Part shown: one piece after another, positions 11,001-56,871 of the stretch
How the letters are laid out: every line of letters starts with the position of its first letter
Position numbering within the stretch: the first letter of the stretch is position 1
Source: a virus
Direction: 5' to 3' (one strand)
Length of the DNA stretch: 64,000 bases
IMG/VR virus record: IMGVR_UViG_3300031857_000130
Span: 1-64,000 of that record
Notes under the pieces: model-generated
The model's database searches: none
Told to the model about the DNA's origin: nothing
Seen by the model: the letters and a program-made list of their open reading frames with translations, nothing else
Made by a program: the position numbers and the translations under genes

Positions 11001-14000
11001 CGCTACACTTGGAACGGCTCTGAGTTTGAGCCGGTTGAGGACGAGGATGTGAGCGTGCGCTACTCGCTTGCTGCAAGTTCTGAGGTTGCGCAGAAGGATG
11101 CCGAATACATGGCAGCCGTGGAGTCTGGCGACATGGAGAAGGCGCAGCGGATGGTGGATGCGGCGGCGAAGGCTGCTGGAACTATCTGGGATGTTGGGTC
11201 AGGTCAGATGTTCCACGGCACGCGCTCTTCTTTTACGAGGATGCGGGTTCCGGCATTCTTCTCCCCTAACCCTGAGGTTATCTATGACCAGCAGCAAGAA
11301 AACAAGACTCACGACTACGGAGACCAGATCAAATCGTTCTTTCTGTTCGGAAAAGTTAAACAGGGCGTCGAAATGCCGGAATATACTTGGGGAGTGCGAA
11401 GTGTGGAGGATGACAGAATCGCCGTCGCGGAAGGTGAGGGGTATGACATTATTGAGCTTGTCCCTTATGGTGACACATCGGGTGGCGAAAACTCATTTTT
11501 TGTAGCTATTAACCCATCCTCCATCAAATCCGCCGACCCCGTCACCCGCGACGACGCTGGCAACGTGATCCCGCTTTCCCAGCGTTTCCAGACTACTTCG
11601 CCGGACATTCGTTACTCCTACGCTCAAACGCCAGCGCAACGCTCGGCTGTCAGCCAGTTCAAGGCGGATATTGGCGAGGCTGCAAAAGGCACCGCTGAGT
11701 TTGCCGACTACGAAGGTCGTCCGATCAAGGATTACGAGATTCTGCCGCACGCGAAGATGGCCGCAGGATTGTATCAGGATGCCGCTGCAAGGTTGCTCAC
11801 AAGCCTTGAAAACGATGGGCTGACGCTGCAAGACATTTACTTGAAGCTCAAGGAGAACGAAGATTTTCGCCTAGAGCTTGGCTTGCACAAGATTGGGGGC
11901 AACATCGCTGAACTTATTTTGACGGCGCAGATTCTTCAACGCTCCAAGAACGCCATCAACAAGGCCAGAACTCCTTCACAGAAGGCGCAGGCGGAGAAGA
12001 TCAGCGACACGATTGCTGATTACTTTGACGGTCTTAGCACAGAAGCAGGCCAGCTATTGCGCAGCGTTCAATACATCTACGACGACCCGCGCACCAAGTT
12101 CTCATTTGAGCAGTTGCAGACTGAGAAGAAGATGAAGAAAAACGGCACCGAGGCCGTGAACAACAAGATGGAAGGCTCGCTGCCACAGGTGAAGGCGAAT
12201 CTGTCCAATGAGATTCCGAAGGTGGACGAGCAAGCGGCTACGGCTGCTGCTAAAGAAACGGAAGCCGCCGTCGAAGAAGATCAGGACGCGATTGATTTGG
12301 CGGAAGGCGAGGCGACTTTGACCGACAAGCAAAAGAGTGCTTGGGAAAGATTCAAGGACGCCATTCGCACCAAGGGGCTGATTGCAAAAGCTCTGAAGGC
12401 CATCAGAGAGCGCAGGGATGGCAATAAAGCTCGAATGTCCATTTCTGGAGAGGCGAGAAATGCCATATTCCAGATGACAGAAGAAGAGCTTATTGCTTTG
12501 GATAAGAAGCAGGATGAGATTATGGCGGAAGCCGAGAAAGCCTTCTTCTCGGAAGGAGATAATACCGCCAAGGCCAAGCGCAAAAAGATGGTCAATACCG
12601 CTAAGAAGCGATCTGAGCAAGGCAAGGAAGTCGAAGCTGGCGTCAAAGACCCGACTCTTGCCAAGGTTGCACGCGCAATCAACGTGGCTCGCAAGAACAT
12701 CAAAGGCCCGTCTGGCAAAGCTATCCAGTGGAAGCAGCTATTCAGCCAGAAAGGCTCCACGGTTGAGCAAGTTCGCAAGAACATCCTCGCCGAGGTGATG
12801 GACAATGAAGCCTTCCGCGACATGTCCGATGACCAGAAGAAGATGGTTGCCGATTACTTCGCTGAATCTTGGAACAGCGAGCGCGAGAAGATCATCAATG
12901 ACATGATTGACAAAAATCGCGATATGCTTGCAAATCAAGACAAGAAGAAAGCCGCAAAAGCTCTTAACGACTCGCGCAATCGCATCCTTGAAGCAGTCAA
13001 CCTTGGCGTTTTCGACAACGACGAGTTGGTTGCCATCCTTGGCGACAAGTTCGGCATTAAGATGAAGTTCACCGAGGCTGAGAAGGCTAAGCTACGCGAC
13101 CTTGCCGAGAAACTTCAGGACGACACGCTGAACAAGGCCAAGCGGAATAAGCTAGGACGCGAGTTCCTGATGGAGCTTGAGGCGGCTTCGCAAGTTCCGA
13201 TGGCTGAGTTGATGGCGAACTTCTGGGTGTCATCGGTTCTGTCTGGCCCGAATACCATCATCTCGATTGGCTTATCCTTCCTCAATGCCACGGGAATCAA
13301 TATCGTGGGCATCCATGTGGCGAGGGCGGTTACCGCCTTTGCCAAAGGCGATGTGGCTGGTGCTATTAAAGCCATCACCACGATGTTCAGCGATTACGCG
13401 AGGCATTTGCTATCTTTCCCATCTGCTATGAATCGCGCTTGGCAGTATCTCTGGAGCGGCGACGTGTCGTTCCTTGAGTCTGGTGCCAACGACCCATTCA
13501 AGAAGGTGAACTCGCTCAAAGAGGTTGCCCGCTATCAGGTTGTGGCTGACCTGATTGCCAAAGACCCGAATGCTGTAAAAGCCGTCTTTGGACGCTTCAT
13601 GCAGTTCATGAGTCGCCTTCTGACCGCGCTTGACGGCTTCAACGTGATGGTGACGAAAGCTGGAACGCTTCACGCCGCCATGTTGCAATCCAACATCACG
13701 CCTGAGCAGATTCGGGACATCACGCTGAAGTCCGACCTCAAGATTTACAAGGATCGCATCGTCAAAAGCGAGTTTGGTGGCAATTACCCCACTAGCCTAC
13801 GCGATAAGGCTTACTTGAACTCGTTGGCAGAAGCCGAGATGTATGCCGACTTGTCCAAGCTAGGACTCAAGGTTGAGAACCAAGACTATCTTGCGGCTGA
13901 ATCGGCAATGACGCTTGACCCGACTGGCGTTGGCGGGCACTTCTACAATCTTGTGCGCTCTTTCGACACGCGCATCATGACTTCGACCAAAGAACGGTTG

Positions 14001-15188
14001 AAGCAGGCTGAAGCGGATTGGGCTGTGAAAAAAGACCCTTGGAATGCTCTCAACTACGTTGTCTGGAATGCGCTCAACTTCATCGCTGAACAGGGAACGA
14101 ACATCACGGGCGTCCGATTCGCCCGATTTGCAGGCAACAAGTTCAACCAGTCTGTGAGCTTTATTCCGCTGGCTGGACTCCTTCGACTTTATGAAGCTGA
14201 CAACGCCAAGCTGGAAAACGCACAGCAGGCTTTCCGTGACTCCATTTGGCGCAATCAGATTGTGGGCGTTGTGGTGACAGCCATTGGTGTTCAACTTATC
14301 AGGGCTATCTCAGACGAGCCGGATGACAAGAAGCGCGGTTGGTTCATCAACGGCGGCTGGAATAACCTTACTCCTGCACAGAAGAAGCAGAAGCTCTCTG
14401 AAGGCCAGCGCGAATACACCCTTGGATTCGGCGACAAGGTGTTCAACTACCAGAACTGGCTTCCAAGCGCATTGCTGGCTGCTATCGGCAACGTCTCTGA
14501 CATGATTCGCTATTCGCCCGATGAATGGAAATCAAAGGGATTTGCCAACCAAGTCATCACCGCTGGCGTTTCTGGCGTGCAATCCTCGCTGGAAATCCCC
14601 GCCCTTGCTCAGCTTGGGCAGTTGTTCGCCAACGACCTCGCCACCAAAGACCCGGCTGAAAAGGCCATCGGACGCTTGGGACAGGTTTTGGCAGGATGGG
14701 CTGGCGGATTCATGCCTCGCTTCCTCAAGGACATTGATTACATGACGGCACCTGACATGCGCCGTTACACCACGTTCTACGAGAAAGTCGCATCGCACAT
14801 CCCGGTTTACCGACGCTACGTTGGCAACGACTACTACGATATTCTTGGCAACAAGATTCAGAAGAACGCATACCCCGGCAGCCGTGATTTTGGCAAGCTC
14901 AAGGACGAGCCTGAATACCAGATGCTTGGCGCTCTGAACGCCCGTGGAATCTGGCTGACACCCGCCAATGCCGAATACCGCATGGTGGGCAAAGGACGCT
15001 ACCGCCGCCGTTTGACGCAGGAAGAAGCCGACGCTTACAGCCTTGAGACGGGCAAGCTCTACAAGCAGATGATCCTGCGCTACGGCCCTAGAGCCTTGCA
15101 AATGCCCGCTGAACGCGCTAAGGACTACATCTCAGACAAGGCAGACGCCATGCGTGATCTTGCCCTCCAAAGAGCAATGAGACGATGA
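5049..15188 (+). CDS. Giant polyvalent virion protein with zincin, ADP-ribosyltransferase-like and TGT-like domains
   Basis: At 3379 residues this is by far the largest gene. Visible parts in order: a Gly/Ala-rich, membrane-active-looking stretch (~65-295); a P/A/E-rich linker; a TIM-barrel TGT/DpdA-like segment (~715-970: DSGAF ~775, MPDVIG ~832, RFVVGIP ~899, HFLGAA ~929, TADASKIRSAI ~956). Next come a zincin motif HENMH (1279-1283), a second zincin motif HEVQH (1540-1544), an ADP-ribosyltransferase-like MFHGT (~2054), and LSQRF...DIRYS (~2177), common in phage polyvalent proteins. Long charged helices follow, then a hydrophobic region (~2715-2780) and a C-terminal domain. Polyvalent proteins are packaged and injected with DNA to modify host targets. 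Domain calls are by motif only, and the TGT-like segment is richer in A+T than its flanks. Confidence 0.85.
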   Translation: MPQWYEITRSEDYQTLAPEEKAQAKARFFEKQILPSLQSDDELNNNEAIQYAYEKFMQLPDDTGQGYVTSMLGAAGRGFGEMVPGAIEGVGALTGSEGLREAGQSLRGTLEEVAPVNPIYAESVPVKLAGVGGQALSMLATAGAGGAAGKALGGVGAVGKGAQGAALGSAFLQGAAGGAREAEQYGMTGPEAYLKTLAGGMTEAGTELLPFGMASETALAKRMFAGAPRATTFAGAVGSEFGEESLGQIASNITTKALAPAGVETPGITEGALEAGLYGAFGGGVMGGINALIPTAPEKQTAEQKQWQAEINATPVDVSPPITPEESQKNATEGGIPVVTPDGAVSWMPAVSQAIAQQGPQPQGMPSDIEQRLKALTENPEIEVAARTLNETKDVPFTDAAAETAANIVAQNAEISMQPPVQPEQEAEAPAVVEMPAPTQVGEAPLSEGAERNRAIIADAAAKMRGQLPPEVSAGLESVIPAQPTTPPEDALQIQIPDESLLREKRPEMELQGMGQQNAQPEEVAAEGEEVITPQGTPTPATEGMFTPGGVGSERDATKPEQMTPEELTSIAKQAKEWASTPISEIKRKYQAEFGASDAYMAAYPYAAEIYQERQVALSKITDKKAQKQHASNIQSALEDRKPVSAEAVDTYGIRLPEGYIKQGELYIFQPGATGEPVQAAPSAAQAVKATAPGPVSQGELILEETPKQSASRIKNNMTRFASGMSAIGDLRKGTYARAGHKNYGVGFDVGLLSKNAINELAQIILNLRTQVFIDSGAFSNFKKAIKAPVTGKKVEPLNFDQILAKYDEIIAAINDANLVEETDYPRPMLVMPDVIGNQAESLSLIEKYKNWIAVESSNSTSIPIIPIPLGELSLSVAYNRILEILGSNTLGIKIDPRRFVVGIPSNAEAISRNDLAKFLSQSKPPRIHFLGAAADKNINPLIDVVAENSPTTQVTADASKIRSAILKGVSDGKTRNQAIFDALYQEDDPLVILDAIKKQIPQTTTVATNETAPPSAKGEAVASAELQPVEGSIPTVPKVSAEETVKSTEKSLEAKTPALVNRRVEQILNAGGRTMVDDLDKFLKSLSDQEFNDFVRSNFFEDPSVAIKPTDSRQAKNAKRKAATDALAQGFIPSPKAQKEANAFEQAERELEQEQQKQNAQSISNLFGPKRTNPVRNQVKSADVEQAIGELQNSGEVPSAVFTWRGTSADMRRERAKYQAQFPGAVAAAEAENVEGVFENGMSFIFTDRVVVTDLDRARAKEDGVTPAVAAAKRVLTHENMHKGFWLLPAKQQAQIMRFLREMFPAEELDELAKVYKQYADWRTNPAHEVALLDERLQKYIEETKTIPTDGVWKQFWDYIKEIWRKWTGKPKGEPTLSSMKDVVRLLRGALKNAHKARPDVTVGGDMVLFSYAGEQAIENLPEERRQFMRDSLDTAKAMAAAGKNSEEIRAVTGWFPGKYDGKMRWEVPDEGARLRNTTADWNPLENWLDHPELFKAYPKSRNIPVRLDSSLKSGGVFAGNGIRIHPDASDGVLNILLHEVQHWIQEQEGFATGSSPAAELANLPRDQEVAEVARNLRVWWTRSVPPSRRVEIKDQLRERYGSGELTTLGMEIPDESAIEMLEAWESATQFMQPQEKAAADVLIKAIYDSRERAFGETGEQPTSQLRYLNNAAEIEARDVQARQKLTPEQRRATAPYSSENIAKEDAIVMFGRGTQASISYASESAQNSAAGQQAARSTSYTPRQLEVFFGVRKAYEQMPKQNGPSVPLSELFNKTSELVDNLTQAEFDKIVQDMYADNAALQNDQFEPNSIVILPTGAMQSLSNPALLTMDDAIQRIEGFTADNEDVDSWPDDVQQRFEESAYNSAIQDNDVLAAWELASPDVRDPKLEPLVEIARKGRQHDVEWDKVANGLRAAGKYSIESVDAELAKRLPQDIIDAAQEDTSALDEWVASDEVLADAKKPFIAEVEQRIADAIKRVEDTGRYTWNGSEFEPVEDEDVSVRYSLAASSEVAQKDAEYMAAVESGDMEKAQRMVDAAAKAAGTIWDVGSGQMFHGTRSSFTRMRVPAFFSPNPEVIYDQQQENKTHDYGDQIKSFFLFGKVKQGVEMPEYTWGVRSVEDDRIAVAEGEGYDIIELVPYGDTSGGENSFFVAINPSSIKSADPVTRDDAGNVIPLSQRFQTTSPDIRYSYAQTPAQRSAVSQFKADIGEAAKGTAEFADYEGRPIKDYEILPHAKMAAGLYQDAAARLLTSLENDGLTLQDIYLKLKENEDFRLELGLHKIGGNIAELILTAQILQRSKNAINKARTPSQKAQAEKISDTIADYFDGLSTEAGQLLRSVQYIYDDPRTKFSFEQLQTEKKMKKNGTEAVNNKMEGSLPQVKANLSNEIPKVDEQAATAAAKETEAAVEEDQDAIDLAEGEATLTDKQKSAWERFKDAIRTKGLIAKALKAIRERRDGNKARMSISGEARNAIFQMTEEELIALDKKQDEIMAEAEKAFFSEGDNTAKAKRKKMVNTAKKRSEQGKEVEAGVKDPTLAKVARAINVARKNIKGPSGKAIQWKQLFSQKGSTVEQVRKNILAEVMDNEAFRDMSDDQKKMVADYFAESWNSEREKIINDMIDKNRDMLANQDKKKAAKALNDSRNRILEAVNLGVFDNDELVAILGDKFGIKMKFTEAEKAKLRDLAEKLQDDTLNKAKRNKLGREFLMELEAASQVPMAELMANFWVSSVLSGPNTIISIGLSFLNATGINIVGIHVARAVTAFAKGDVAGAIKAITTMFSDYARHLLSFPSAMNRAWQYLWSGDVSFLESGANDPFKKVNSLKEVARYQVVADLIAKDPNAVKAVFGRFMQFMSRLLTALDGFNVMVTKAGTLHAAMLQSNITPEQIRDITLKSDLKIYKDRIVKSEFGGNYPTSLRDKAYLNSLAEAEMYADLSKLGLKVENQDYLAAESAMTLDPTGVGGHFYNLVRSFDTRIMTSTKERLKQAEADWAVKKDPWNALNYVVWNALNFIAEQGTNITGVRFARFAGNKFNQSVSFIPLAGLLRLYEADNAKLENAQQAFRDSIWRNQIVGVVVTAIGVQLIRAISDEPDDKKRGWFINGGWNNLTPAQKKQKLSEGQREYTLGFGDKVFNYQNWLPSALLAAIGNVSDMIRYSPDEWKSKGFANQVITAGVSGVQSSLEIPALAQLGQLFANDLATKDPAEKAIGRLGQVLAGWAGGFMPRFLKDIDYMTAPDMRRYTTFYEKVASHIPVYRRYVGNDYYDILGNKIQKNAYPGSRDFGKLKDEPEYQMLGALNARGIWLTPANAEYRMVGKGRYRRRLTQEEADAYSLETGKLYKQMILRYGPRALQMPAERAKDYISDKADAMRDLALQRAMRR

Positions 15189-35676: not shown

Positions 35677-35752
35677 AACCGGCCATGTTCCAAGGTTGGC
35701 GAGTTGGACTCCAAATCCGATTGGTAAGGTTCGATTCCTTAGCCGGTTGCCA
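35677..35752 (+). tRNA. tRNA-Trp (anticodon CCA)
   Basis: Acceptor AACCGGC pairs with GCCGGTT, discriminator G and encoded CCA. Anticodon arm TTGGA-CTCCAAA-TCCGA gives anticodon CCA with T33. T arm TAAGG-TTCGATT-CCTTA is perfect. The D arm pairs poorly and position 8 is not T, so the D arm is unusual. It lies directly before the XRE-type gene, 16 bases upstream of its ATG. Confidence 0.85.
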
Positions 35753-35768: not shown

Positions 35769-36065
35769 ATGACAAAACTACAACAAGAACTGCAACGCCT
35801 GCAAAAACTCACGAATGAGTTCCACAAGAACGTCTCTCAAATCACAGAGAAATACAAAACTGCGAGGTCTGGCTATGTCAATCGCATTGGCATGGAACTC
35901 AAAAAGTTTCGCGTGGAGAGGCGAATGAAGCAGCGTGAGCTTGCTTTTCAAATTGGCATCAACAGCGCGTTTCTCTCGTTTATCGAAAACGGCGACTCTT
36001 GCGCCTCCACAAGCGATAATGTCATTGCTCAAATCGCGGAATGGGTGTCTAAAAACCAATCTTGA
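35769..36065 (+). CDS. XRE-family HTH regulator
   Basis: A 98-residue protein starting MTKLQQELQRLQKL. A coiled-coil N-terminal helix is followed by a Cro/CI-type HTH (LKKFRVERRMKQRELAFQIG and INSAFLSFIENGDS, ~46-78). The frame is open upstream but that part would run through the tRNA, so the start at 35769 is preferred. It shares bases with the next start (TGATG). Confidence 0.75.
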   Translation: MTKLQQELQRLQKLTNEFHKNVSQITEKYKTARSGYVNRIGMELKKFRVERRMKQRELAFQIGINSAFLSFIENGDSCASTSDNVIAQIAEWVSKNQS

Positions 36066-38482
36066 TGAAAATAATCTCTCTCTGCCACGCAACAAAACGT
36101 CCTCATGTAGCCAAACAGTGTCACGAATTGTGGCGCAGTATGGCGAAAAACCCTGAGCGTGTCGAGATTGTTCTTGGCATTGATCTTGGTGACGAGGCTT
36201 TGTTTGAGGACTTCAAACGCCCCACGTTCATAGGCAGGGAGAACTCATGTGTTGCTGCGTGGAATGCCGCCGCTGCTGGCTGCAAGGGAGATATTCTCAT
36301 CGGCCTAGACGACGATTGGGAGCCAGTTCAAAATTGGGATGAGATTGTGGAGGCCCGTCTTGGCGACAACGACGTTTTGCGCATTGGCGACTTGCACCGC
36401 AAAGACGACTTGATCTGCCATGCCATCGTTTCCCGCGATTGGTATGAGACGGTTGGCTACCTCTATCACCCCCTGTTCAAATCCGTTTACTGCGACAACT
36501 TCTTTACCCAACAAGCTATCCGACATGCCAACATTGCTGACGCGACTGACATCCAGTTCATCCACAAAAACCCAAGTCAAAACTACGGCACCGAAGATGA
36601 GGTCGCTCGCAATAGCAATTCGCCTGCGCGTTATGAGCATGGCCGAATGGTTTTTGACTCACTGATGGGGCCGGAACATGCAATCTTGGCGTTTACCTGC
36701 GCTGGCAGGCCGATGTATCTGCAAGAGTCTTTGGAAAGCTGGCTGAAAAACGATTTGTCGCTGGTGAAAAGCGTTCAGTTCTTTGTGGAGCCGACAAATC
36801 AACGTGATTTGATCCTTGCCATCATTGATGATTTCGCGCTCAAATGCCCGGTTCCTGTGATCGTTCACAAGAACAAGGAGGTCTTGGGCGTGCTAAAGAA
36901 TCCGTGGCACCTGTTTGAAAATTGCTTCAGCGAGCAAATGGCAAGCCGCGTTATTCTTGGCGAGGACGATTTTGTGGTTGCTCCTGACACGCTGAGATTC
37001 CTGCTGTCCATGACGACTCACATGGACAACAAAACTATGGCTGTTTGCGCCAAGTGGGTTGGAAAGAATGCAGACCACAATCCTGAGACATGGCACCGTA
37101 GCACGGAGTTCACGGGCAACATTTGGATGATGCCACGACACATCTGGAAGGATTATGTGCGTGACACTTGGGACTTCGACTATTCCAGTGGCAATGCCGA
37201 CAAAACACCTTCTGGCTGGGATTGGAACATTCAGCTTCGCGTCATTCCTCGCAATGGGCTGCATTGCATTGTGCCTACTGCCTCTCGTTCCCGCCACATT
37301 GGGGTTGATGGTGTTCATTGCCACAAGGACGTGTTTGATGAAACGGTGGCGTGGAATGCGATCAACACTCCCTACTCTAGGCCATACACCCCGTTTGAAT
37401 ATTGCATCGTTCGCCCCACAAAGACGTATTCAGGCGTCAAGCATGTCACCTCTTCTGGCGATTTGGGCGACATCATCGTGTCCTTGGCCACATTGCATCA
37501 CCTTGGATGCGAGGCTGTGTATCTGTTGCGCGACAATGGGCAAACCAAAGGCATCACCAGCAAGATTGACATCATCAAGCCAATCCTGATGGCTCAGCCA
37601 TACATCAAGGATGTCAAGATTTACGAGGGCGAGCATGTTGACTGGCAAAGCGAAGGCTTCCGCTCAGGCTGGGTTCAGCGCGACATGTCCTTGGCTCACA
37701 ATCATGCCAAGCACGCCTTGGATCATGGGTTCATTTCGACCATGCCAAATCTCTCCGAACGCTGGCTGTTCAACATTGAGCCTAGCAAGCTGACGCGGGG
37801 GCGGGTTGTCATCAATCGTTCTCCGCGATACGGAAATCCTCACTTCCCTTGGCGCAAGATTGTTGAGTTCTATGGAGAGAAGCTGCTTTTCCTTGGCTTA
37901 GACCATGAGCACCGAGCTTTCTGTGATGCGTTTGGCGCTGTGGAATACAAGCACACAGCCAACATGCTAGAGGCCGCCGAATTAATCGCTGGCAGCAAGC
38001 TATTCATCGGCAATCAATCCTCCTGCATGACGATTGCGGAAGGGATGAAGCATCCTCGCATTCAAGAGGGGAGCCTCGTCATTTCGGACTGCGTTTATCC
38101 AAATGCTCACAACGCTCAGTATGTCTTTGATGGATCGGTAAATCTTCCGTGCTTGAGCGACGATACTGTGTATCACATTGATTCTCAGGTCAAAACGTGG
38201 CGAAGTTATCTGGTTAACGAAGTTCCTATTTGCGGCAATGGCATTGTCGGATGGCATTATCAATGCGGCAACGTCATGGTGAACGAGGGTTACTTTGAGT
38301 TTGCCGTGCGCAAGGTCAAGAAGCTCACTGGATGGGATGACGAGACGGCATCAAAGGCTATTATCGAGTTCACGGTTTCCCTCAATCCGCAGTGGTTTGA
38401 AAAGAAAGTCAGGCTTCCGCAGCTAGGCGTGGCACGCAGAGCTTTGCGAAATGCTGGATATAACCAGCACGCGATTCTGTGA
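36065..38482 (+). CDS. Three-domain glycosyltransferase
   Basis: An 805-residue protein with three parts. Residues ~1-195 form a GT-A domain (MKIISLCHATKRPH, DILIGLDDDWEP with the DDD metal motif). Residues ~205-430 form a second GT-A-like domain (AILAFTCAGRPMYLQESLESWL, RVILGEDDFVV). Residues ~455-700 resemble a GT-B/GT9-type domain (SSGDLGDIIVSLATLHHLG, VINRSPRYGNP, LFLGLDHEHRAF, GSKLFIGNQSSCMTIAEG). Such a fusion would sequentially build or modify a glycan, perhaps on virion proteins or host surface. Activities and order are inferred from motifs. Confidence 0.75.
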   Translation: MKIISLCHATKRPHVAKQCHELWRSMAKNPERVEIVLGIDLGDEALFEDFKRPTFIGRENSCVAAWNAAAAGCKGDILIGLDDDWEPVQNWDEIVEARLGDNDVLRIGDLHRKDDLICHAIVSRDWYETVGYLYHPLFKSVYCDNFFTQQAIRHANIADATDIQFIHKNPSQNYGTEDEVARNSNSPARYEHGRMVFDSLMGPEHAILAFTCAGRPMYLQESLESWLKNDLSLVKSVQFFVEPTNQRDLILAIIDDFALKCPVPVIVHKNKEVLGVLKNPWHLFENCFSEQMASRVILGEDDFVVAPDTLRFLLSMTTHMDNKTMAVCAKWVGKNADHNPETWHRSTEFTGNIWMMPRHIWKDYVRDTWDFDYSSGNADKTPSGWDWNIQLRVIPRNGLHCIVPTASRSRHIGVDGVHCHKDVFDETVAWNAINTPYSRPYTPFEYCIVRPTKTYSGVKHVTSSGDLGDIIVSLATLHHLGCEAVYLLRDNGQTKGITSKIDIIKPILMAQPYIKDVKIYEGEHVDWQSEGFRSGWVQRDMSLAHNHAKHALDHGFISTMPNLSERWLFNIEPSKLTRGRVVINRSPRYGNPHFPWRKIVEFYGEKLLFLGLDHEHRAFCDAFGAVEYKHTANMLEAAELIAGSKLFIGNQSSCMTIAEGMKHPRIQEGSLVISDCVYPNAHNAQYVFDGSVNLPCLSDDTVYHIDSQVKTWRSYLVNEVPICGNGIVGWHYQCGNVMVNEGYFEFAVRKVKKLTGWDDETASKAIIEFTVSLNPQWFEKKVRLPQLGVARRALRNAGYNQHAIL

Positions 38483-50522: not shown

Positions 50523-51107
50523 TCAATCATTTACGTCAATCACCGGAAATTCTTCCCCACCAAACTCCGCGCTTCCATCGGTCACGATGTTCACTTGAAC
50601 GCTGTTGGACTGCTCGATTCCGTAGAGCTTGAGCGCCAGGCCACCTAGCTGGACAAGCTCCGACACATTCTCAGGAATGATAGATTGCGCCTCCGGGCTA
50701 TTAATCGCGTTTTTAAGCGTTTTGGCGAGTCCTAGCAAGGTTCCGCTCCTGTGACTCTCCAGTGTCTCTGCGACGGCCTGAGAGGCCAAAAGAACGGGTT
50801 TCTCGGCTTTTCCAGCTTCTTGTGACAATTTCTCTTTTTCCGTGACAGCCAATTCACGCTTCATATTCTCAATTTTGAGAGGTGTGAGCCAGTTCTCACG
50901 GCATGAACGCTGACGAATAGCATCATAGCTTGTTTTGAAGATGCGGGCGGCGTCTTGATAGCTCATTCCAGCAACGCAGGCATCTTTGACTTGTGACCAC
51001 TGTTCCGGCGTTAAGATAGGGGCAGGAAATGCCGCTTTCGGCTCGATTTTAGCCTCCTGATATTGTGCTGGCGCTTCGCTTTCTGCTTCTTTCTCTTGTG
51101 TCTCCAT
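50523..51107 (-). CDS. HTH protein, candidate terminase small subunit
   Basis: A 194-residue protein with a charged head, an HTH at ~34-65 (LTPEQWSQVKDACVAGMSYQ, DAARIFKTSYDAIRQRS), a coiled-coil middle and a beta tail ending in SVQVNIV...EFPVIDVND. This N-terminal HTH plus oligomerisation layout is that of terminase small subunits, but it lies 5 kb from the large subunit gene and could be a regulator. Its promoter overlaps a dyad, suggesting autoregulation. Confidence 0.55.
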   Translation of the reverse strand: METQEKEAESEAPAQYQEAKIEPKAAFPAPILTPEQWSQVKDACVAGMSYQDAARIFKTSYDAIRQRSCRENWLTPLKIENMKRELAVTEKEKLSQEAGKAEKPVLLASQAVAETLESHRSGTLLGLAKTLKNAINSPEAQSIIPENVSELVQLGGLALKLYGIEQSNSVQVNIVTDGSAEFGGEEFPVIDVND

Positions 51108-51113
51108 GCCTTA

Positions 51114-51142
51114 ACGCTTCCCTTTTCCACTCGCTTTGTCAA
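51114..51142 (-). promoter_or_regulatory. Promoter of the HTH gene
   Basis: Minus strand TTGACA (51142-51137), 17-base spacer, AAGCGT (51119-51114), six bases to the ATG. The -10 is poor but the -35 is perfect. Confidence 0.5.
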
Positions 51143-51148
51143 ACAAAG
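51134..51148. promoter_or_regulatory. Operator-like dyad over the leftward -35
   Basis: CTTTGTCAAACAAAG: perfect six-base arms around CAA. It covers the -35 of the HTH gene promoter. Confidence 0.6.
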
Positions 51149-51171
51149 TGAATCATTCCCTCTTTTCCTCC

Positions 51172-51199
51172 TTGCAATATACGCGTCTGCGCGTATCTT
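51172..51199 (+). promoter_or_regulatory. Promoter of the small-gene operon, with internal dyad
   Basis: TTGCAA (51172-51177), 16-base spacer, TATCTT (51194-51199). The dyad ATACGCG-TCTG-CGCGTAT (51179-51196) fills the space between the two boxes, an ideal repressor position. Unlike most promoters here the mRNA has an A-rich leader of about 30 bases. Confidence 0.65.
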
Positions 51200-51232
51200 G
51201 TGGCCCGGTTAGTAAACAAACAAAACAAAGAT

Positions 51233-51499
51233 ATGACACTAGAGGAAACGATTCACGATAAGTACATGAGCTGGGGCGCGATTGAGGCAAATGCAGAACT
51301 TGCGCCGTTCATCATGGAGTGGGAGAAATCCAACGGAGTGGAACTGACAAAGCAGGAGATTATGCGGGCTATCTATCACGCTGGGGAGCGTTTCGCTGAC
51401 TCCATGCAAGATGACGCAAGCGAAGAAGAAGCGGCACGATTTGAGGCCATGCGCCCTTCCGTGCGCAGGAAGAAAGAGATTCTAGCAATGCTTGGTTAG
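51233..51499 (+). CDS. Hypothetical protein, first gene of the small-gene operon
   Basis: An 88-residue helical acidic protein (MTLEETIHDKYMSWGAIEAN, LTKQEIMRAIYHAGERFADS). No family recognised. Start preferred after the leader AACAAACAAAACAAAGAT. It is controlled by the dyad-bearing promoter upstream. Confidence 0.6.
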   Translation: MTLEETIHDKYMSWGAIEANAELAPFIMEWEKSNGVELTKQEIMRAIYHAGERFADSMQDDASEEEAARFEAMRPSVRRKKEILAMLG

Positions 51500-51679
51500 C
51501 CTTCACACGGCGCGCCCTTAATCGGGGCGCGCAAGTGAGCGCTAAAAGCTCAAAAAGACAAAGGCGCAATGGGGCCGTTCGCCATCCCTCCATTCATGCG
51601 AAGGATAGAAGCATGCGAAACAAGAGTGCTCTGCATTCTGCCCGGAATTAGCCGGGCAGAAACCAAAGCACAAAAAAAT
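51500..51679 (+). other. Structured intergenic RNA (hairpin-AAGTGAGC class plus second hairpin)
   Basis: Stem GCGCGCCC/GGGCGCGC (51510-51532) is followed by AAGTGAGCGCTAAAAGCTC, containing GAGC/GCTC; the same order recurs at 54160. A second stem TCTGCCCGG/CCGGGCAGA (51636-51659) precedes the next gene. A basic 40-codon frame with a GTG start at 51536 lies between and cannot be excluded. Confidence 0.55.
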
Positions 51680-51826
51680 ATGAAACTAACCAAAAACGAG
51701 TTCGTCGCAATCTGCGCAGAGTTTACCGTTGATCCGGCTGTGGCTCTGGAAGCTGAAGCAGTTATTCGCGCTTTAAAAACAGGTTGTGCGGATGCAGTCA
51801 GACTGGCGATTGCGTGCGAAATGTAA
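51680..51826 (+). CDS. Small hypothetical protein
   Basis: A 48-residue protein (MKLTKNEFVAICAEFTVDPA...LAIACEM), helical with three cysteines. The frame is open upstream to 51569, but that part overlaps the hairpin and lacks an A-rich leader, so the ATG at 51680 is preferred. Confidence 0.5.
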   Translation: MKLTKNEFVAICAEFTVDPAVALEAEAVIRALKTGCADAVRLAIACEM

Positions 51827-51838
51827 GCAAAACAGGGG

Positions 51839-51856
51839 CCGCGCATCTTCACGCGG
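51839..51856 (+). other. Leader hairpin
   Basis: CCGCG-CATCTTCA-CGCGG followed by AAACAAAC and the start codon. The loop word CATCTT recurs in leaders at 54.85 kb and in the operon terminator. Confidence 0.5.
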
Positions 51857-51864
51857 AAACAAAC

Positions 51865-52134
51865 ATGAAAAAACCGATACAAATCAAAGCGGAAAGCGCC
51901 AGAAAGCTCTCGCGAGTTTTGATGGCTAAACTCGGCCCGCCAGAAGGCGGATCACCGGGCTGTGACCAGCGCGGAACCGAGTACCAGTTCACTTGGCGCT
52001 ATCGTCACGACGACGGTAGCACATGGGCGAAAATGGGATATGGGCCAACTCGTAAAATGGTCACCCTTTCGCGATTTGAGCCTAAAAATGGAACTCCCGT
52101 GTTCCGGATGTGGATTCGCCTGTGTAAAGCATGA
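51865..52134 (+). CDS. Small basic hypothetical protein
   Basis: An 89-residue basic protein (MKKPIQIKAESARKLSRVLM, RYRHDDGSTWAKMGYGPTRK) with a mixed alpha then beta pattern. Similar small proteins occur in phage operons of tiny genes; no function known. Confidence 0.55.
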   Translation: MKKPIQIKAESARKLSRVLMAKLGPPEGGSPGCDQRGTEYQFTWRYRHDDGSTWAKMGYGPTRKMVTLSRFEPKNGTPVFRMWIRLCKA

Positions 52135-52216
52135 CGCTCAACACCTGCCCTTGCCACAAGCCAGGGCAGGCATTGAACGCCACACGGCGGGAAGGAAACA
52201 ACGAAAACAGACACCG
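52135..52216 (+). other. Structured intergenic RNA, two-hairpin class
   Basis: Stem CCTGCCCT/AGGGCAGG is closed by an outer TCAA/TTGA, then AACGCC-ACAC-GGCGGGAAGG forms a second hairpin, then an AACGAAAACAGAC leader. The same order with a different first stem recurs at 53083. Confidence 0.65.
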
Positions 52217-52510
52217 ATGAAAAAGGAACAAACGAAAGTTATTTTCCGCAAGTTTACAGGTGACGGCTCAATTATTGCGCTATTCCCCGAACTGCCCGCG
52301 GATGTCCACGCGGACCATTGCTTGTCGTATCAGCATATCGGCCAGCATGGAGCAGCGAGTATTGACCTTGCACACGTTACAGTGCCAGCAAAGCCAGCAG
52401 AGTACGCCCGCCTTAAGGCGGAACTCGAAGCAATCGGCCATAACCTGGAAACCGTGAAGCGGGCAACGGCAGCAATGCACGCGGCGCGCTGCGCAAAAAT
52501 AAGGCGCTAG
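52217..52510 (+). CDS. Hypothetical protein
   Basis: A 97-residue protein (VIFRKFTGDGSIIALFPELP, ADHCLSYQHIGQHGAASID) followed by a helical C-terminus with an arginine-rich end. This pattern occurs in uncharacterised phage proteins handling small molecules or DNA; no motif is decisive. Confidence 0.6.
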   Translation: MKKEQTKVIFRKFTGDGSIIALFPELPADVHADHCLSYQHIGQHGAASIDLAHVTVPAKPAEYARLKAELEAIGHNLETVKRATAAMHAARCAKIRR

Positions 52511-52605
52511 ACACAAGGGCGCGGGAACCCTTAAATCCCGCAAATTTTCGGCCATCAAGCCCCGCCCGCATGCGGAAAACTGCCGGAAACAGACAAAACG
52601 ACGAC
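52511..52605 (+). other. Structured intergenic RNA, pseudoknot class
   Basis: AAGGG (52515-52519) pairs with CCCTT (52528-52532), which lies in the loop of GCGGG/CCCGC (52521-52525 / 52537-52541): an H-type pseudoknot. The conserved word AAATTTTCG follows. Related elements are at 53299 and 56297. Confidence 0.6.
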
Positions 52606-53082
52606 ATGAAAAAAGCAAACATTGGCTCCATTTCGCATGGAACACTCAGAACGGCAGACTTGCTAAACGCATTCTGCAACGAGCTGGAATGGCAATTGCG
52701 CAGAAACGGGAATTATTTCGCCCACCCTGAGAACAGAGAGGAAGGGCGCAAAATTCACGAACTTTGCGGAGAGTGCCAGGACCAGTACGAGGAGGATGGC
52801 GAAACGCTAAAAGACGAAGACACAGCAAGCGAGCTTGTGGAGAGTTTGACAGACTCCCTACAACAATTCGCGCCCGCTTACTGCTACTTTGGCGCACATG
52901 AAGGCGATGGTTCAGACTTTGGATTCTGGCCTAGCATAGAGAGTATTGAAGAATTGCCTTGTTATGAGGGAACCGAAGAAGCACTCAAAGCAGGAGAAAC
53001 GAACGACTTTCGCGTGGTGAATGACCACGGGAACGTGACTGTTTATTCTGCTAGTGGGAATGAGATTATTGCACTCGTATAA
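52606..53082 (+). CDS. Hypothetical acidic phage protein
   Basis: A 158-residue acidic protein (SHGTLRTADLLNAFCNELEW, CGECQDQYEEDG, AYCYFGAHEGDGSDFGFWPS). Proteins with the late FGAHEGDGSDFGFW pattern are common in phage small-gene operons. Function unknown. Confidence 0.65.
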   Translation: MKKANIGSISHGTLRTADLLNAFCNELEWQLRRNGNYFAHPENREEGRKIHELCGECQDQYEEDGETLKDEDTASELVESLTDSLQQFAPAYCYFGAHEGDGSDFGFWPSIESIEELPCYEGTEEALKAGETNDFRVVNDHGNVTVYSASGNEIIALV

Positions 53083-53166
53083 ATGACGCTCAAAGGGCGC
53101 ATAGCAAGCCTATGCGCCCCATTGAACGCCACAAGGCGGGAAGGAAACAAACGAAAACAGACTATT
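53083..53166 (+). other. Structured intergenic RNA, two-hairpin class
   Basis: Stem GGGCGCATAG/CTATGCGCCC (53095-53104 / 53110-53119) within TCAA...TTGA, then CGCC-ACAA-GGCG and GGGAAGGAAACAAACG leader. The second half is nearly identical to 52172-52216, while the first stem is different in sequence yet fully paired. Confidence 0.68.
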
Positions 53167-53298
53167 ATGCAAATTGGACTCTATGCGGGATCATTCCCCA
53201 CAATCGAAGAAGCGGAAAATTGCGCGAACCACATGATTCACGGCGGAGCGATTCAAGAGCAAGATGGCAAGTTTCACGTTTGGTACGTGAACGCCTAA
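53167..53298 (+). CDS. 43-residue hypothetical protein
   Basis: MQIGLYAGSFPTIEEAENCA, then NHMIHGGAIQ and KFHVWYVNA. A short alpha/beta peptide. Supported by the structured leader and distinct reading frame; function unknown. Confidence 0.5.
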   Translation: MQIGLYAGSFPTIEEAENCANHMIHGGAIQEQDGKFHVWYVNA

Positions 53299-53382
53299 AA
53301 AACCACTAAAGGACACCGGCCCTCCATAAACCGGCAATTTTCGAGCGGCAGACGCTCATAATAACAAACGAAAGGACAAACG
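53299..53382 (+). other. Structured intergenic RNA, pseudoknot class
   Basis: CCGG/CCGG stem with a loop ending ATAAA, weak AGG/CCT pseudoknot pairing, CAATTTTCG, then GAGCG-GCAGA-CGCTC (53343-53357). The second hairpin covaries with the one at 56341. Confidence 0.6.
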
Positions 53383-54159
53383 ATGAAAGAGCACGAAACA
53401 TACAAGGGTTACAAAATCGAAATTAAACAGGATCAATACGCAGAAAACCCGTTTGAGGCATGGGATTTTGAACCGCCACTAATCGCCTTTTATGGCGGGA
53501 GGCATTCCGAGGCATCCTATTATCAGGACGCGCCGGAATCATGGTGGGATATTCTGCGAATGCTTCCACCTGCATTCTTCAATCGAAAGAACCGCATGGC
53601 ATTCTTGCGGGAGTTTATTCTCCCGCTTGGCTTGTCCTTGCGTGACTTCGCGGAGGAAAGGCAACGCATTGGAGAAGTTGACGCAATCGCAACGTTGCTA
53701 GGCGAGTATCTAGGCGAAAAACCACAAGGATGGCGTGCCGCTAGTGAATGGCTGGAAATGGCCGAAAGCCTCTTAAAATGGGGCGGGATTGAATGCTTAA
53801 ACACTCAGTCTAATGGTTATTCACAAGGCGATTCCACCTTACTGCTTGTTATTGCCTCGCCTAAATGGCTGGAACAAACAGGCATCAAAGCGGAGCATGT
53901 GGCGGAGTCGTTACAAGCAAGCGCGGATTTGTATGGAGCTTGGGTATGGGGCGACGTCTACGGCATTTCCGCAATCTACGCTCCAAACGAGGAAGACGAG
54001 GACGCACAAGGCGAGAAAATCAGCGAAGGTTCTTGCTGGGGTTTCTATGGGCGGGATCATGAAAAATCCGGCCTTATGGAGCACGCAAGGAGCGCGATTG
54101 ACTGGCACCTTGAGAACAAGGCACAAACGGCACTCAATGAGCCTGCGTGCCTGATATAG
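53383..54159 (+). CDS. Hypothetical phage protein
   Basis: A 258-residue protein, the largest of this operon. The first 60 residues are aromatic and beta-like (WDFEPPLIAFYGGRHSEAS), the middle helical with many W, and the end reads CWGFYGRDHEKSGL. This is a family frequent in phage operons of small genes, with no known function. Confidence 0.65.
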   Translation: MKEHETYKGYKIEIKQDQYAENPFEAWDFEPPLIAFYGGRHSEASYYQDAPESWWDILRMLPPAFFNRKNRMAFLREFILPLGLSLRDFAEERQRIGEVDAIATLLGEYLGEKPQGWRAASEWLEMAESLLKWGGIECLNTQSNGYSQGDSTLLLVIASPKWLEQTGIKAEHVAESLQASADLYGAWVWGDVYGISAIYAPNEEDEDAQGEKISEGSCWGFYGRDHEKSGLMEHARSAIDWHLENKAQTALNEPACLI

Positions 54160-54244
54160 AACACGCACGGAGCGCCTAGCCTAAACCGCTAGGCGCTCAA
54201 GCGTGAGCTACAAAGCGCACGAAACAAAACAACAAAACAAAGCA
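54160..54244 (+). other. Structured intergenic RNA, hairpin-AAGYGAGC class
   Basis: Perfect 11-bp stem GAGCGCCTAGC/GCTAGGCGCTC (54170-54180 / 54188-54198), loop CTAAACC, then AAGCGTGAGCTACAAAGCGC and an A-rich leader. Compare 51510-51551. Confidence 0.62.
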
Positions 54245-54382
54245 ATGCCCTATCACCTCCAACAACATTACAGGGAAGCCGCAAGGCGACGCCAAGCCGC
54301 TCACGATCAAGCCAGCTTCATTCGCTGGCTCCTGATTTACGGCGCTTTAGTCCTGGCCGCACTCGTAGCGGCGGCAATGTGA
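54245..54382 (+). CDS. 45-residue single-pass membrane protein
   Basis: MPYHLQQHYREAARRRQAAH is a basic, helical N-terminus; FIRWLLIYGALVLAALVAAA is one membrane helix. Charge distribution suggests the N-terminus stays in the cytoplasm. Function unknown. Confidence 0.55.
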   Translation: MPYHLQQHYREAARRRQAAHDQASFIRWLLIYGALVLAALVAAAM

Positions 54383-54408
54383 ACAACAACAAACACAGAA
54401 AGAAGAAC

Positions 54409-54780
54409 ATGAACACAGACAACGAAGCAAAAATCAAAGCCTTGGCGGCATATCTCGAATGTTCGCCGGAAGAACTCAGCGAAGAAAGGTGTGACCACTA
54501 CGGCATGCCGATTTTCTCGCTAGGTTCTCAGGAGTACTCCGTTGGGACGGATGAGGAAGCGGACGCCGCTTGGGATGCTGAACTCGACAACTATATCGAG
54601 GAATGCATCACGCCGGAAATCGACAGGATCGAGCTTGGCAACCTTTCCAGCTACCTCAAATTCGACGAGGAAGCATGGAAGCGTGACGCTCGCATGGACG
54701 GGCGCGGGCACGCGCTTAGCCGTTACGACGGCGACGAAATCGAGCTAGACGGCGGTTTCTACGCTTACCGGCTCAACTAG
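54409..54780 (+). CDS. Hypothetical phage protein
   Basis: A 123-residue acidic protein starting MNTDNEAKIKALAAYLECSP, with SVGTDEEADAAWDAELDNYI, FDEEAWKRDARMDGRGHALS and GGFYAYRLN. The order matches a family seen repeatedly in phages with small-gene operons; no activity known. Confidence 0.68.
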   Translation: MNTDNEAKIKALAAYLECSPEELSEERCDHYGMPIFSLGSQEYSVGTDEEADAAWDAELDNYIEECITPEIDRIELGNLSSYLKFDEEAWKRDARMDGRGHALSRYDGDEIELDGGFYAYRLN

Positions 54781-54897
54781 GCATTGCCTCCTTGTCTCCC
54801 CTCCCGTCATGGGAGGGGAGCAAAGGGCGCAAAACCCTCCTTGCAAGGCTGCCCATCTTGCACGGCAAAACCGGGCAAAACATAACCACAAAAACAA
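54781..54897 (+). other. Structured intergenic RNA with three hairpins
   Basis: CTCCCCTCCC/GGGAGGGGAG (54796-54805 / 54811-54820), AGGG/CCCT (54824-54838), then GCCCATCTTGCACGGC and an A+C-rich leader. The CATCTT word is shared with 51844 and the operon terminator. Confidence 0.6.
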
Positions 54898-55227
54898 ATG
54901 CAATTAAACCACAATCCCGCAGAGTTCTGCGCAGTAAACAACATAGTTGGCCTCTCCCTTGATCGCCTCCCAAGCGGCAAGGTGATGGCCTGCGAAGTCC
55001 GAAGAGACGAAGCCGGAGAGCTTCGCGTCCCCATTGCTCAAATGAGTCTGGAGGAGCTTTATCGGCTCGCCTCTCGGCTCCATTTGGAAATCTTGCCATC
55101 GCGTTTCGCGTCACGGCAGGAGATGGATTCTCACCGGGCGCACGTGCGCCGACTCTCTGAACGCGCCGAACAAGCGCGGGAGCTTCGCGGGGAACGCGAA
55201 AGCGAGGGATGGAAACAAGCTGAATAA
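54898..55227 (+). CDS. Hypothetical protein
   Basis: A 109-residue protein: beta-like first part (NNIVGLSLDRLPSGKVMACE) and a charged helical C-terminal half (RRLSERAEQARELRGERESE). No family recognised. Confidence 0.58.
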   Translation: MQLNHNPAEFCAVNNIVGLSLDRLPSGKVMACEVRRDEAGELRVPIAQMSLEELYRLASRLHLEILPSRFASRQEMDSHRAHVRRLSERAEQARELRGERESEGWKQAE

Positions 55228-55314
55228 CCCTCCTGTCTGCTCTGTCGGCTAACGCTGGCAGAGTAGCGGGGAGCGTTAAAGCTCCGAACAAACAACAAAA
55301 CGAAAGGAAACGAC
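55228..55314 (+). other. Structured intergenic RNA, TAACGC-loop class
   Basis: Stem CTGCTCTG/CAGAGTAG (55237-55244 / 55259-55266) with loop TCGGCTAACGCTGG, then GGAGC-GTTAAA-GCTCC (55270-55285) and the leader AACAAACAACAAAACGAAAG. Covaries with 55805. Confidence 0.7.
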
Positions 55315-55509
55315 ATGAACGAAAAATGCAAACGGCACAAATGGCAAAATATCGGAGGATGCCGGGAAAACCCTGGCATCATGGGCATCGGTGGCGCTGC
55401 CATACGTCACACACAGCAATGTACCGAGTGCCAGCGCACGCGTTCTCGCGTGTTCGGCGACGTGAATGTGTGCGGCAATCGCAACCACGGATGGAGGAGC
55501 CACGAATGA
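55315..55509 (+). CDS. Small cysteine-rich hypothetical protein
   Basis: A 64-residue protein with CKRHKW, GGCRENPG, QCTECQRTR and VCGNRNHGW: four or more cysteines that could bind zinc. Ends overlap the next start. Confidence 0.6.
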   Translation: MNEKCKRHKWQNIGGCRENPGIMGIGGAAIRHTQQCTECQRTRSRVFGDVNVCGNRNHGWRSHE

Positions 55510-55610
55510 ACCCCCTGGAACCCCAAGAGCCTTGCGCGCTCGTGCAATTCGCCGTTACTTTGGCCTTCGCGGCCTTTTTCGCGGCGATATTGTTCGGGTA
55601 TTGCCACTAA
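55506..55610 (+). CDS. 34-residue membrane microprotein
   Basis: MNPLEPQEPCALVQFAVTLA then FAAFFAAILFGYCH, a single hydrophobic helix. The ATGA overlap with the preceding stop supports coupled translation. Confidence 0.55.
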   Translation: MNPLEPQEPCALVQFAVTLAFAAFFAAILFGYCH

Positions 55611-55624
55611 CCAAACAGACAACC

Positions 55625-55804
55625 ATGAGCACACTAGAAACAGGTACAGAGACTCGCGGCATTGATACCGCCGCGATTTGGCAACGTGAGTACGAGCAAG
55701 CCAAGCAAGACTGGCCCAAAGGGGGGCCGGATTGCTGGCAATGGCACGCCGATGAAGCGGTTCAAGAGGCCATAAGTGGATACGCCAGCGTTGCCAACTA
55801 CTAG
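55625..55804 (+). CDS. Small hypothetical protein
   Basis: A 59-residue protein (RGIDTAAIWQREYEQAKQDW, CWQWHADEAVQEAISG), helical with a W-rich centre. No family recognised. Confidence 0.52.
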   Translation: MSTLETGTETRGIDTAAIWQREYEQAKQDWPKGGPDCWQWHADEAVQEAISGYASVANY

Positions 55805-55894
55805 AACGCTCCCGTTCAGCCTCTCTGGTTAACGCCGGGGAGGTTGCGGGGAGTTTTCACGACTCCGATAAACAACAAACCAAAACATAGAAAC
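55805..55894 (+). other. Structured intergenic RNA, TAACGC-loop class
   Basis: Stem CAGCCTCTC/GGGAGGTTG (55817-55825 / 55838-55846) with loop TGGTTAACGCCG, then GGAGT-TTTCACG-ACTCC (55850-55866) and an A-rich leader. Several base pairs differ from 55228 but stay paired. Confidence 0.7.
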
Positions 55895-56296
55895 ATGAGC
55901 AAGTCACACCTACCCTACCCTGGACGCCACGAAAGCCACGAAAGCTGGATGCGCCGTTGCGACGAATGGCAGGAAAACCGCCGCCGTTCTCAGTCTCGCG
56001 GCCTTTCTGGCCGCCCCGATTACCACGGCCTAGCAAGCGAGGGGCGCGGAGTCGAATGGCAGAGAGTCCGCATCGCCGGGCAATGGCATACCGTTGAGGT
56101 CCCTCACTTCGCTGAGCATGAGGGCAAACGCGTACGTGTCCTGCGCTACGGCTGGGGCAGCAAGACGGCCTACCGCGTGAGAGACTGGGCGAAAAAGAGA
56201 GGTTTCAAGTTCGCCCGTCTCATAAATGCAAACGGCCACTACGGCATGTGCGGACGGGATGACGGCATGGCCTACTGCGAGGTAGCTTTTGCCTAA
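55895..56296 (+). CDS. Basic hypothetical protein
   Basis: A 133-residue protein: arginine-rich first third (WMRRCDEWQENRRRSQSRGL), then a beta segment (VEWQRVRIAGQWHTVEVPHF) and AYRVRDWAKKRGFKFARL. May bind nucleic acid; no family recognised. Confidence 0.55.
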   Translation: MSKSHLPYPGRHESHESWMRRCDEWQENRRRSQSRGLSGRPDYHGLASEGRGVEWQRVRIAGQWHTVEVPHFAEHEGKRVRVLRYGWGSKTAYRVRDWAKKRGFKFARLINANGHYGMCGRDDGMAYCEVAFA

Positions 56297-56386
56297 GAAC
56301 CCAAGGGAGCCGGAAACCCTCACAAACCGGCGAATTTTCGGGGCGGCAGACGCCCAAACGACAAGAGACACAAACCACAAGACAAC
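56297..56386 (+). other. Structured intergenic RNA, pseudoknot class
   Basis: AGGG (56304-56307) with CCCT (56317-56320) in the loop of GCCGG/CCGGC (56309-56313 / 56327-56331), then GAATTTTCG and GGGCG-GCAGA-CGCCC (56341-56355). Confidence 0.65.
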
Positions 56387-56575
56387 ATGAAAACGATGCA
56401 AATCGAGGCCAATAATCACGACAACAACGACCTGCTTCGTTACGCTGGCGCGAAGCGTATTTTTCCCGGATGGTACACAGTGCGCTATCGCGGCGTGAAG
56501 CTGGACAAATCGACAATATGCGGAGCAAAACGCAATCGCAAAGGATTGATCCACATCTCCCCTCCGCACGCATGA
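56387..56575 (+). CDS. Small basic hypothetical protein
   Basis: A 62-residue protein (MKTMQIEANNHDNNDLLRYA, IFPGWYTVRYRGVKLDKS). Overlaps the next gene by ATGA. Function unknown. Confidence 0.52.
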   Translation: MKTMQIEANNHDNNDLLRYAGAKRIFPGWYTVRYRGVKLDKSTICGAKRNRKGLIHISPPHA

Positions 56576-56724
56576 AAACCGACGCCGAAAAACTCGCCGC
56601 TTTCTTTGACCTGCTGGCTAAGCGATGGCAGGAACATGAGGCGGAGAAAGCGCAGGAAAGGAAAGACGAGCAGTACAAGAAACTAGCAAAGCTCCAGCCA
56701 TGGTGGCAGGACGCCGCGCAGTAA
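56572..56724 (+). CDS. 50-residue helical protein, last gene of the operon
   Basis: A charged helix (AFFDLLAKRWQEHEAEKAQE) followed by KLAKLQPWWQDAAQ. It begins at the overlap and ends just before the terminator. Confidence 0.52.
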   Translation: MKTDAEKLAAFFDLLAKRWQEHEAEKAQERKDEQYKKLAKLQPWWQDAAQ

Positions 56725-56727
56725 ACG

Positions 56728-56762
56728 AAAGCCGGACATCTTCGCGGGTGTCCGGCTTTTTT
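56728..56762 (+). terminator. Intrinsic terminator of the small-gene operon
   Basis: AAAGCCGGACA pairs with TGTCCGGCTTT around a loop starting TCTTCGCGGG, followed by more T. The only textbook terminator in this stretch, so the preceding genes form one unit. Confidence 0.85.
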
Positions 56763-56871
56763 GTGCCCTCATGCAATTCTCAATTATGAGAACCCGGCGA
56801 TGCGTTCACGCCCTACCATTTCCGCACTCGTGAAATTCAACCAGAGCCGCGAAAATGAGTCGCAAACATCC

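Follow-up and report, generated by a model that had tools for sequence, protein, structure and literature searches.

Phage T7 has RNase III hairpin sites between the small genes of its early region, and cutting there divides the transcript into separate messages. In prophages, hammerhead ribozymes lie beside single genes or short blocks of genes; three tandem arrangements showed activity in vitro and one did so in vivo, in E. coli, and operon- or gene-length messages have been proposed as the outcome of clustered copies (Perreault 2011, PMC3088659). Why phages keep hammerheads between small genes has been an open question since 2011. Here we describe an operon at 51233-56724 of a 64,000-nucleotide stretch of viral DNA (positions 1 to 64,000 of the 67.6 kb IMG/VR virus record IMGVR_UViG_3300031857_000130; hereafter the window), in which sixteen mostly tiny genes of 34-258 residues are separated at most junctions by structured RNA elements of several classes. 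The record encodes a terminase, RecT, a PD-(D/E)XK nuclease and a gene of 3379 residues, which identifies the virus as a tailed phage. The same operon type, with the genes reshuffled, occurs in about 30 related IMG/VR phages, and in some of them one of the element positions is occupied by a complete hammerhead.

The T7 early sites resemble this locus in placing hairpins between small genes, but the locus also has ribozyme and pseudoknot classes. The prophage hammerheads (PMC3088659) are matched by those of the relatives, which are type II with a loop I pseudoknot and lie between small phage genes on one transcript. However, the relatives have a single hammerhead slot amid several other covarying classes, and the window has no hammerhead. 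The promoter-terminator cassettes known as PeSLs in T4-type phages (Arbiol 2010, Comeau 2014; see PMC4503421) are likewise repeated intergenic elements with stem-loops in hypervariable small-gene regions and have been linked to modular shuffling. The elements here show covariation and pseudoknots rather than conserved DNA, and the gaps are without promoters or U-tract terminators. Identity with the PeSLs was rejected, as no promoter-like site was found on the plus strand of the gaps. The SAS and ESAS elements of cluster K mycobacteriophages (PMC3203893) are also repeated elements, some containing inverted repeats, before the starts of varied small non-structural genes. SAS is a 13-bp Shine-Dalgarno-like repeat and ESAS is without RNA pairing support, whereas here pairing covaries and there is no common repeat. 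No common 13-bp AGGAG repeat precedes the starts and the leaders share only A-richness, so these elements are not SAS/ESAS. The pistol, twister, twister sister, hatchet and hepatitis delta virus (HDV)-like ribozymes are, like the window elements, compact knotted or pseudoknotted RNAs in phage neighbourhoods, and several ribozyme classes were first found by searching beside other ribozymes (PMC6154101, PMC4604425, PMC10879173). The window elements differ in having no Rfam match, and one pseudoknotted class, B, lacks the P2 of pistol and the P3 of HDV. Integron attC sites were rejected because no gap has an RYYYAAC/GTTRRRY pair, the record encodes no tyrosine integrase (PF00589) and selection acts on the sense strand.

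The operon lies between a single promoter and a single terminator, both read in the sequence and, like all its features given below, on the plus strand. The promoter (51172-51199) has the form TTGCAA-16-TATCTT with the dyad ATACGCG/CGCGTAT between its hexamers, and the same arrangement occurs at the equivalent place in the related phages G003 (TTGCAA..TATAAT) and G005. In both, the symmetry between -35 and -10 is kept despite changed letters, which is operator-like. The intrinsic terminator, GCCGGACA-loop-TGTCCGGC-TTTTTT (56731-56762), has a 10-base loop, outside the range of the terminator pattern scan. In gene order the junctions measure 180, 38, 82, 95, 84, 84, 85, 26, 117, 87, -4, 14, 87-90, 90 and -4 nt. 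Gaps of 26-180 nt are thus present at 12 of the 15 junctions, and 11 of those 12 hold a structured element; the 26 nt and 14 nt gaps hold none and two junctions overlap. The element usually lies immediately 3' of the stop codon and is followed by an A-rich leader, the 25 nt upstream of the ATG having a composition of A 0.56, C 0.24, G 0.14 and T 0.06, compared with A 0.32 and T 0.24 elsewhere. Junctions elsewhere in the window are mostly -4 to +9 nt. The sequence-only reading of the window had recognised the single dyad-bearing promoter and single intrinsic terminator, the stems after stops in most gaps (elements at 11 of 15 junctions), the A/C-rich unstructured leaders and the contrast with the coupled genes elsewhere, and we agree with it on all of these. 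It counted fifteen genes where we count sixteen.

The structure in these gaps exceeds chance. Measured against dinucleotide shuffles, the folding z of 12 gaps had a mean of -3.1, with single values to -6.3, while random windows gave -0.4 and coding windows of the same operon -0.9. The gaps with class B elements (4, 6 and 14) had weak values of -0.8 to -1.8, because nested folding does not count a pseudoknot helix. Across 73 non-redundant gaps from about 30 phages the mean z was -2.71 on the sense strand and -1.34 on the antisense strand (p=5e-8). This stronger sense folding shows that selection is on the transcript and not on the DNA. Three covariance models, R1-R3, run across 536 kb, matched almost only in operon gaps; many of the weaker matches were antisense shadows of the same elements and a few weak ones lay elsewhere. 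Comparison of the stems with shuffled gaps, and a search for conservation in relatives, had been suggested by the sequence-only reading. The stems survived that comparison, and the elements are kept and covary across the related phages.

Covariation was far above shuffled and slid controls in classes C, D and H. Class C lies at 55228-55285 (z -5.3), with a second copy at 55807-55866 (R2, 66.3 bits). Class H is the first element of gap 1 (51498-51561; R3, 35.1 bits, E 2e-6) and recurs at 54162-54225 (z -6.3; R3, 54.3 bits, E 1.1e-11). Class D (54783-54877) has two long stems and a hairpin, and its loop TGCCC pairs with GGGCA to form a pseudoknot. In fitted alignments, which are biased towards their own model, 98.2% of the cells of class D were paired, with double changes in 16 of 32 pairs and a covariation of 0.434 against 0.151 when shuffled; class H was 97.0% paired with double changes in 9 of 14 pairs, and class C, aligned over both clades, was 92.2% paired with double changes in 14 of 21. 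Covarying pairs were seen in the unfitted alignments of classes C and H too, and the first, unfitted alignment of class D was 96.8% paired (11 pairs). The pseudoknot strands of class D are invariant within the alignment, so the pseudoknot rests on their perfect complementarity beside diverged stems and on two variants, a longer TGCCCATG/CATGGGCA in L072 and TTGCCC/GGGTAA in L037. In class H (54158-54228 and 51498-51561) a conserved strand, GCGTG, can pair with either an upstream or a downstream partner, and the strand and both partners change together in the second window copy. Class H could be a two-state RNA. Alternative pairing of a conserved strand is also seen in part in classes C and D.

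Class B is an H-type pseudoknot followed, in most of its ten copies, by a hairpin. The window has three: AAGGG-C-GCGGG-AA-CCCTT-AAAT-CCCGC with a 3' domain at 52515-52586, a pseudoknot with the hairpin GAGCG-GCAGA-CGCTC at 53311-53357, and AGGG-A-GCCGG-AAA-CCCT-CACAAA-CCGGC followed by the hairpin GGGCG-GCAGA-CGCCC at 56304-56355. In a hand-made alignment of copies from one clade, the helix partners were complementary in 17 of 18 distinct helices, compared with 6 of 46 combinations swapped between copies. A free descriptor search was too noisy to add to this (8 sense and 8 antisense matches), so the case for class B rests on the hand-placed helices against swapped partners. Fewer examples are available for classes A, E and Z, all of them hairpins. 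Class A is at 52135-52189 (z -3.5), with flanks that recur in gap 5 and in G005, and at 53087-53138 (z -3.8). Class E, the second element of gap 1 (51626-51676), is 98% identical in G003 and G005, where a different gene lies downstream. Class Z, GGGGCCGCG-CATCTTCA-CGCGG at 51835-51856, has the same motif in the early gaps of 9 relatives. Several of these classes are conserved covarying RNAs that Rfam does not recognise. Four or five are undescribed RNA families and candidates for catalysis.

Gene 10 (54898-55227, 109 residues) is the most conserved gene of the operon (alignment of 11), and a pseudoknot-bearing element is always directly upstream of it. In at least 11 distinct sequences from relatives this slot is a complete type II hammerhead, and in all of the 11 analysed the core of GUC-GAAAC, stem III, GUC cleavage site, stem I and CUGANGA-GAC is intact. 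The layout is that of type II, with the core GAAA / CUGANGA / UH, stem II open and stems I and III closed. Loop I pairs with the tail 3' of stem II (TAGCC/GGCTA in eight sequences, GCTC/GAGC in three), and stems I and III have compensatory changes. Scores against Rfam Hammerhead_II were 39.2, 38.1 and 36.9 bits, and 34.7 in the most distant group (cut-off 37). The hammerheads were found on the plus strand only and at no other place in the scanned loci. Class D takes this slot in the window, G003, G005, L021, L023, L028, L072, L074, L077 and L037. In L033 and L028 both flanking genes belong to the same families, and one phage has the hammerhead and the other class D. The best explanation of these sequences is that the gene 10 slot RNAs are self-cleaving in at least some relatives, given established ribozyme chemistry; 14 of 18 consensus-conforming hammerheads have been found active (PMC3088659).

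Known RNAs were considered for the window elements and rejected. The best Rfam match, to CyVA-1 and antisense to class D (21.8 bits, cut-off 41.4; E 0.006 in 126 bases), was rejected because relatives do not keep the matching GUUUU and folding is for the most part stronger on the sense strand. Class B is not pistol, which needs a P1-loop pseudoknot, P2, P3 and 10 conserved nucleotides: its layout has no P2 and there was no Rfam match. Nor does it fit the HDV-like layout, as P3 is missing.

Three proteins led to the relatives: terminase gave near-identical phages with a mosaic operon region, and RecT and gene 10 gave about thirty further contigs. No close relative came from a nucleotide search of phage records, a search of viral contigs found neither gene 7 nor an exact match to the DNA patterns of class A or B, and a search of genome contigs gave no host. 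Of 19 ends of alignments between the operon and its two closest relatives, 13 fell at element edges or within gaps; gaps make up 19% of the operon. Elements also match close relatives without their flanking genes: class E (51626-51676), the class B element of gap 4 (52510-52597, in G003) and the class A element of gap 5 (53079-53173). The same class can serve different neighbours, with class C 3' of gene 10, of gene 13 in the window and of another gene in L072, class H upstream of gene 8 and its relatives, and class E upstream of different genes in different phages. These observations support the modularity proposed by the sequence-only reading. In the two closest relatives (L017 3240-3860 and L018 (G005) ~5180-5780) the operon is split between genes 12 and 16 by a terminator and a reverse-strand HNH-like gene, which resembles a homing endonuclease insertion.

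On balance we favour the interpretation that the modules are transcript-processing and insulating junctions. The hypervariable operon would be transcribed from one promoter as one RNA, with a junction module, a structured RNA after the upstream stop and an unstructured A-rich leader, between nearly all neighbouring cassettes of one to three tiny genes. The structured part would be cut: a ribozyme would cleave itself, and a plain hairpin would perhaps be cleaved by a host nuclease. Each downstream message would then begin with a structured 5' end of its own and an A-rich site for ribosomes to land, and each upstream message would finish in a folded 3' end. As every module would bring its own processing site and leader, cassettes could be swapped between phages with their neighbours undisturbed, and separate messages may be the purpose of the arrangement. 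Gene 1 (51233-51499, 88 residues), which has a short A-rich leader and no element, fits the idea that internal genes need an element because they have no transcript start of their own. The position of the window's own classes, and the replacement of a hammerhead by one of them in the same slot, suggest that they too may be cut.

Several observations weigh against this interpretation. There is no CTGANGA on the plus strand of 51101-56800, hence no hammerhead core in the window, and searches of the window elements against Rfam gave no ribozyme match at permissive thresholds and no match to any family at the curated score. No window element is therefore a known ribozyme. The hammerhead is confined to one slot of the operon. 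Distant relatives differ at the unpaired positions of class D, which is unlike a catalytic core, and the hairpins of classes A, E and Z could be simple stabilisers. The processing proposed by the sequence-only reading thus gains indirect support from the complete hammerhead in the gene 10 slot of relatives, though the window lacks one. For the translation control that it also proposed, the uniform A-rich leaders are suggestive, but no regulated switch was seen except the class H strand.

The main rival, unlikely in our view, is that the modules insulate without any cutting. Stable hairpins and pseudoknots after each stop would shield the 3' end of the upstream message and leave the leader free of structure, the leaders would serve independent, Shine-Dalgarno-poor initiation, and a pseudoknot near the leader would be the common function of the gene 10 slot. 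The H-type pseudoknot just upstream of the leader in all versions of that slot, hammerhead and class D alike, would be expected, as would the uniform A-richness of the leaders and the variable loops of class D. An intact catalytic core in 11 of 11 distinct hammerhead sequences would not, as insulation has no need of it. We also think it doubtful that one or more of the window's classes, most plausibly B or D, is an undescribed self-cleaving ribozyme and that several unrelated ribozymes dice one transcript. A further explanation is that host RNase III or another endonuclease cuts the long hairpins, as in the T7 early region. The long stems of classes A, C, H and E, with their small internal loops, would suit such an enzyme, as would the position of the gaps among small genes that are probably early. 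A double-stranded RNA nuclease does not fit the hammerheads or classes B and D, which are pseudoknotted, and we regard this explanation as improbable.

The modules could instead act as DNA and shuffle small genes, either as blocks of homology or as hairpin sites, in the manner of T4 PeSLs or integron attC. This would explain why homology breaks in gaps, why shared elements are free-standing and why one class can be flanked by different gene pairs. Structure is, however, selected on the transcript strand, the gaps have neither an attC consensus pair nor promoters, and there is no integrase; moreover, pairing is kept while helix sequence diverges, which makes the elements less useful as homology blocks. 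We consider recombination cassettes very improbable. T4 gp32 regulates its own synthesis through a leader pseudoknot, and the modules might similarly co-regulate the operon as switches or as leaders that bind protein, with gene 10 autoregulation as an example. The two pairings of the class H strand and the constant pseudoknot in the gene 10 slot point this way, but unrelated classes without a common binding motif precede different genes and no structure was matched with confidence by the model of gene 10, and we give this the lowest probability of all.

The operon genes offer few clues to function, their protein families amounting to two PHROGs of unknown function and otherwise sub-threshold matches only. 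Genes 2 (51680-51826, 48 residues), 3 (51865-52134, 89) and 4 (52217-52510, 97) are followed by gene 5 (52606-53082, 158), which belongs to PHROG 29605 (unknown function) and whose relatives in Pseudomonas phages KPP25 and phiR18 are 33-35% identical. Beyond gene 6 (53167-53298, 43), gene 7 (53383-54159, 258) belongs to PHROG 6186 (unknown function), with relatives at 35% identity in the Erythrobacter phages vB_EliS-R16L/R22L. The relatives of these two genes indicate that cassettes reach phages of other hosts. Gene 8 (54245-54382, 45) has a hydrophobic C-terminus and is followed by gene 9 (54409-54780, 123). The predicted structure of gene 10 (pLDDT 77, pTM 0.55) had no confident PDB match. 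Downstream are gene 11 (55315-55509, 64) and gene 12 (55506-55610, 34), which overlaps it, then genes 13 (55625-55804, 59) and 14 (55895-56296, 133), and finally gene 15 (56387-56575, 62) with gene 16 (56572-56724, 50) overlapping it. Elsewhere in the window, the 3379-residue gene (5049-15188) is a single left-arm gene, as is typical for virion proteins of very large size. A tRNA-Trp gene (35677-35752) lies directly before a gene with glycosyltransferase matches (36062-38482; PHROG 14945, GNT-I family).

That hammerheads flank small phage genes, and may give gene-length messages, is already known (PMC3088659). In the open-licence literature we found no operon with structured modules of several classes at nearly every junction that are exchanged as modules and in which a hammerhead and another RNA replace each other. 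The new features are an array that combines several RNA classes, the modular nature of this array and the undescribed RNA families. The natural swaps, in which the same two genes are separated by a hammerhead or by another structured RNA, make function directly testable. The covarying RNAs unknown to Rfam form a shortlist from the type of neighbourhood that earlier yielded new ribozyme classes. If the modules do process the transcript, the free swapping of tiny genes among these phages would be explained, as each cassette would have its own message ends.

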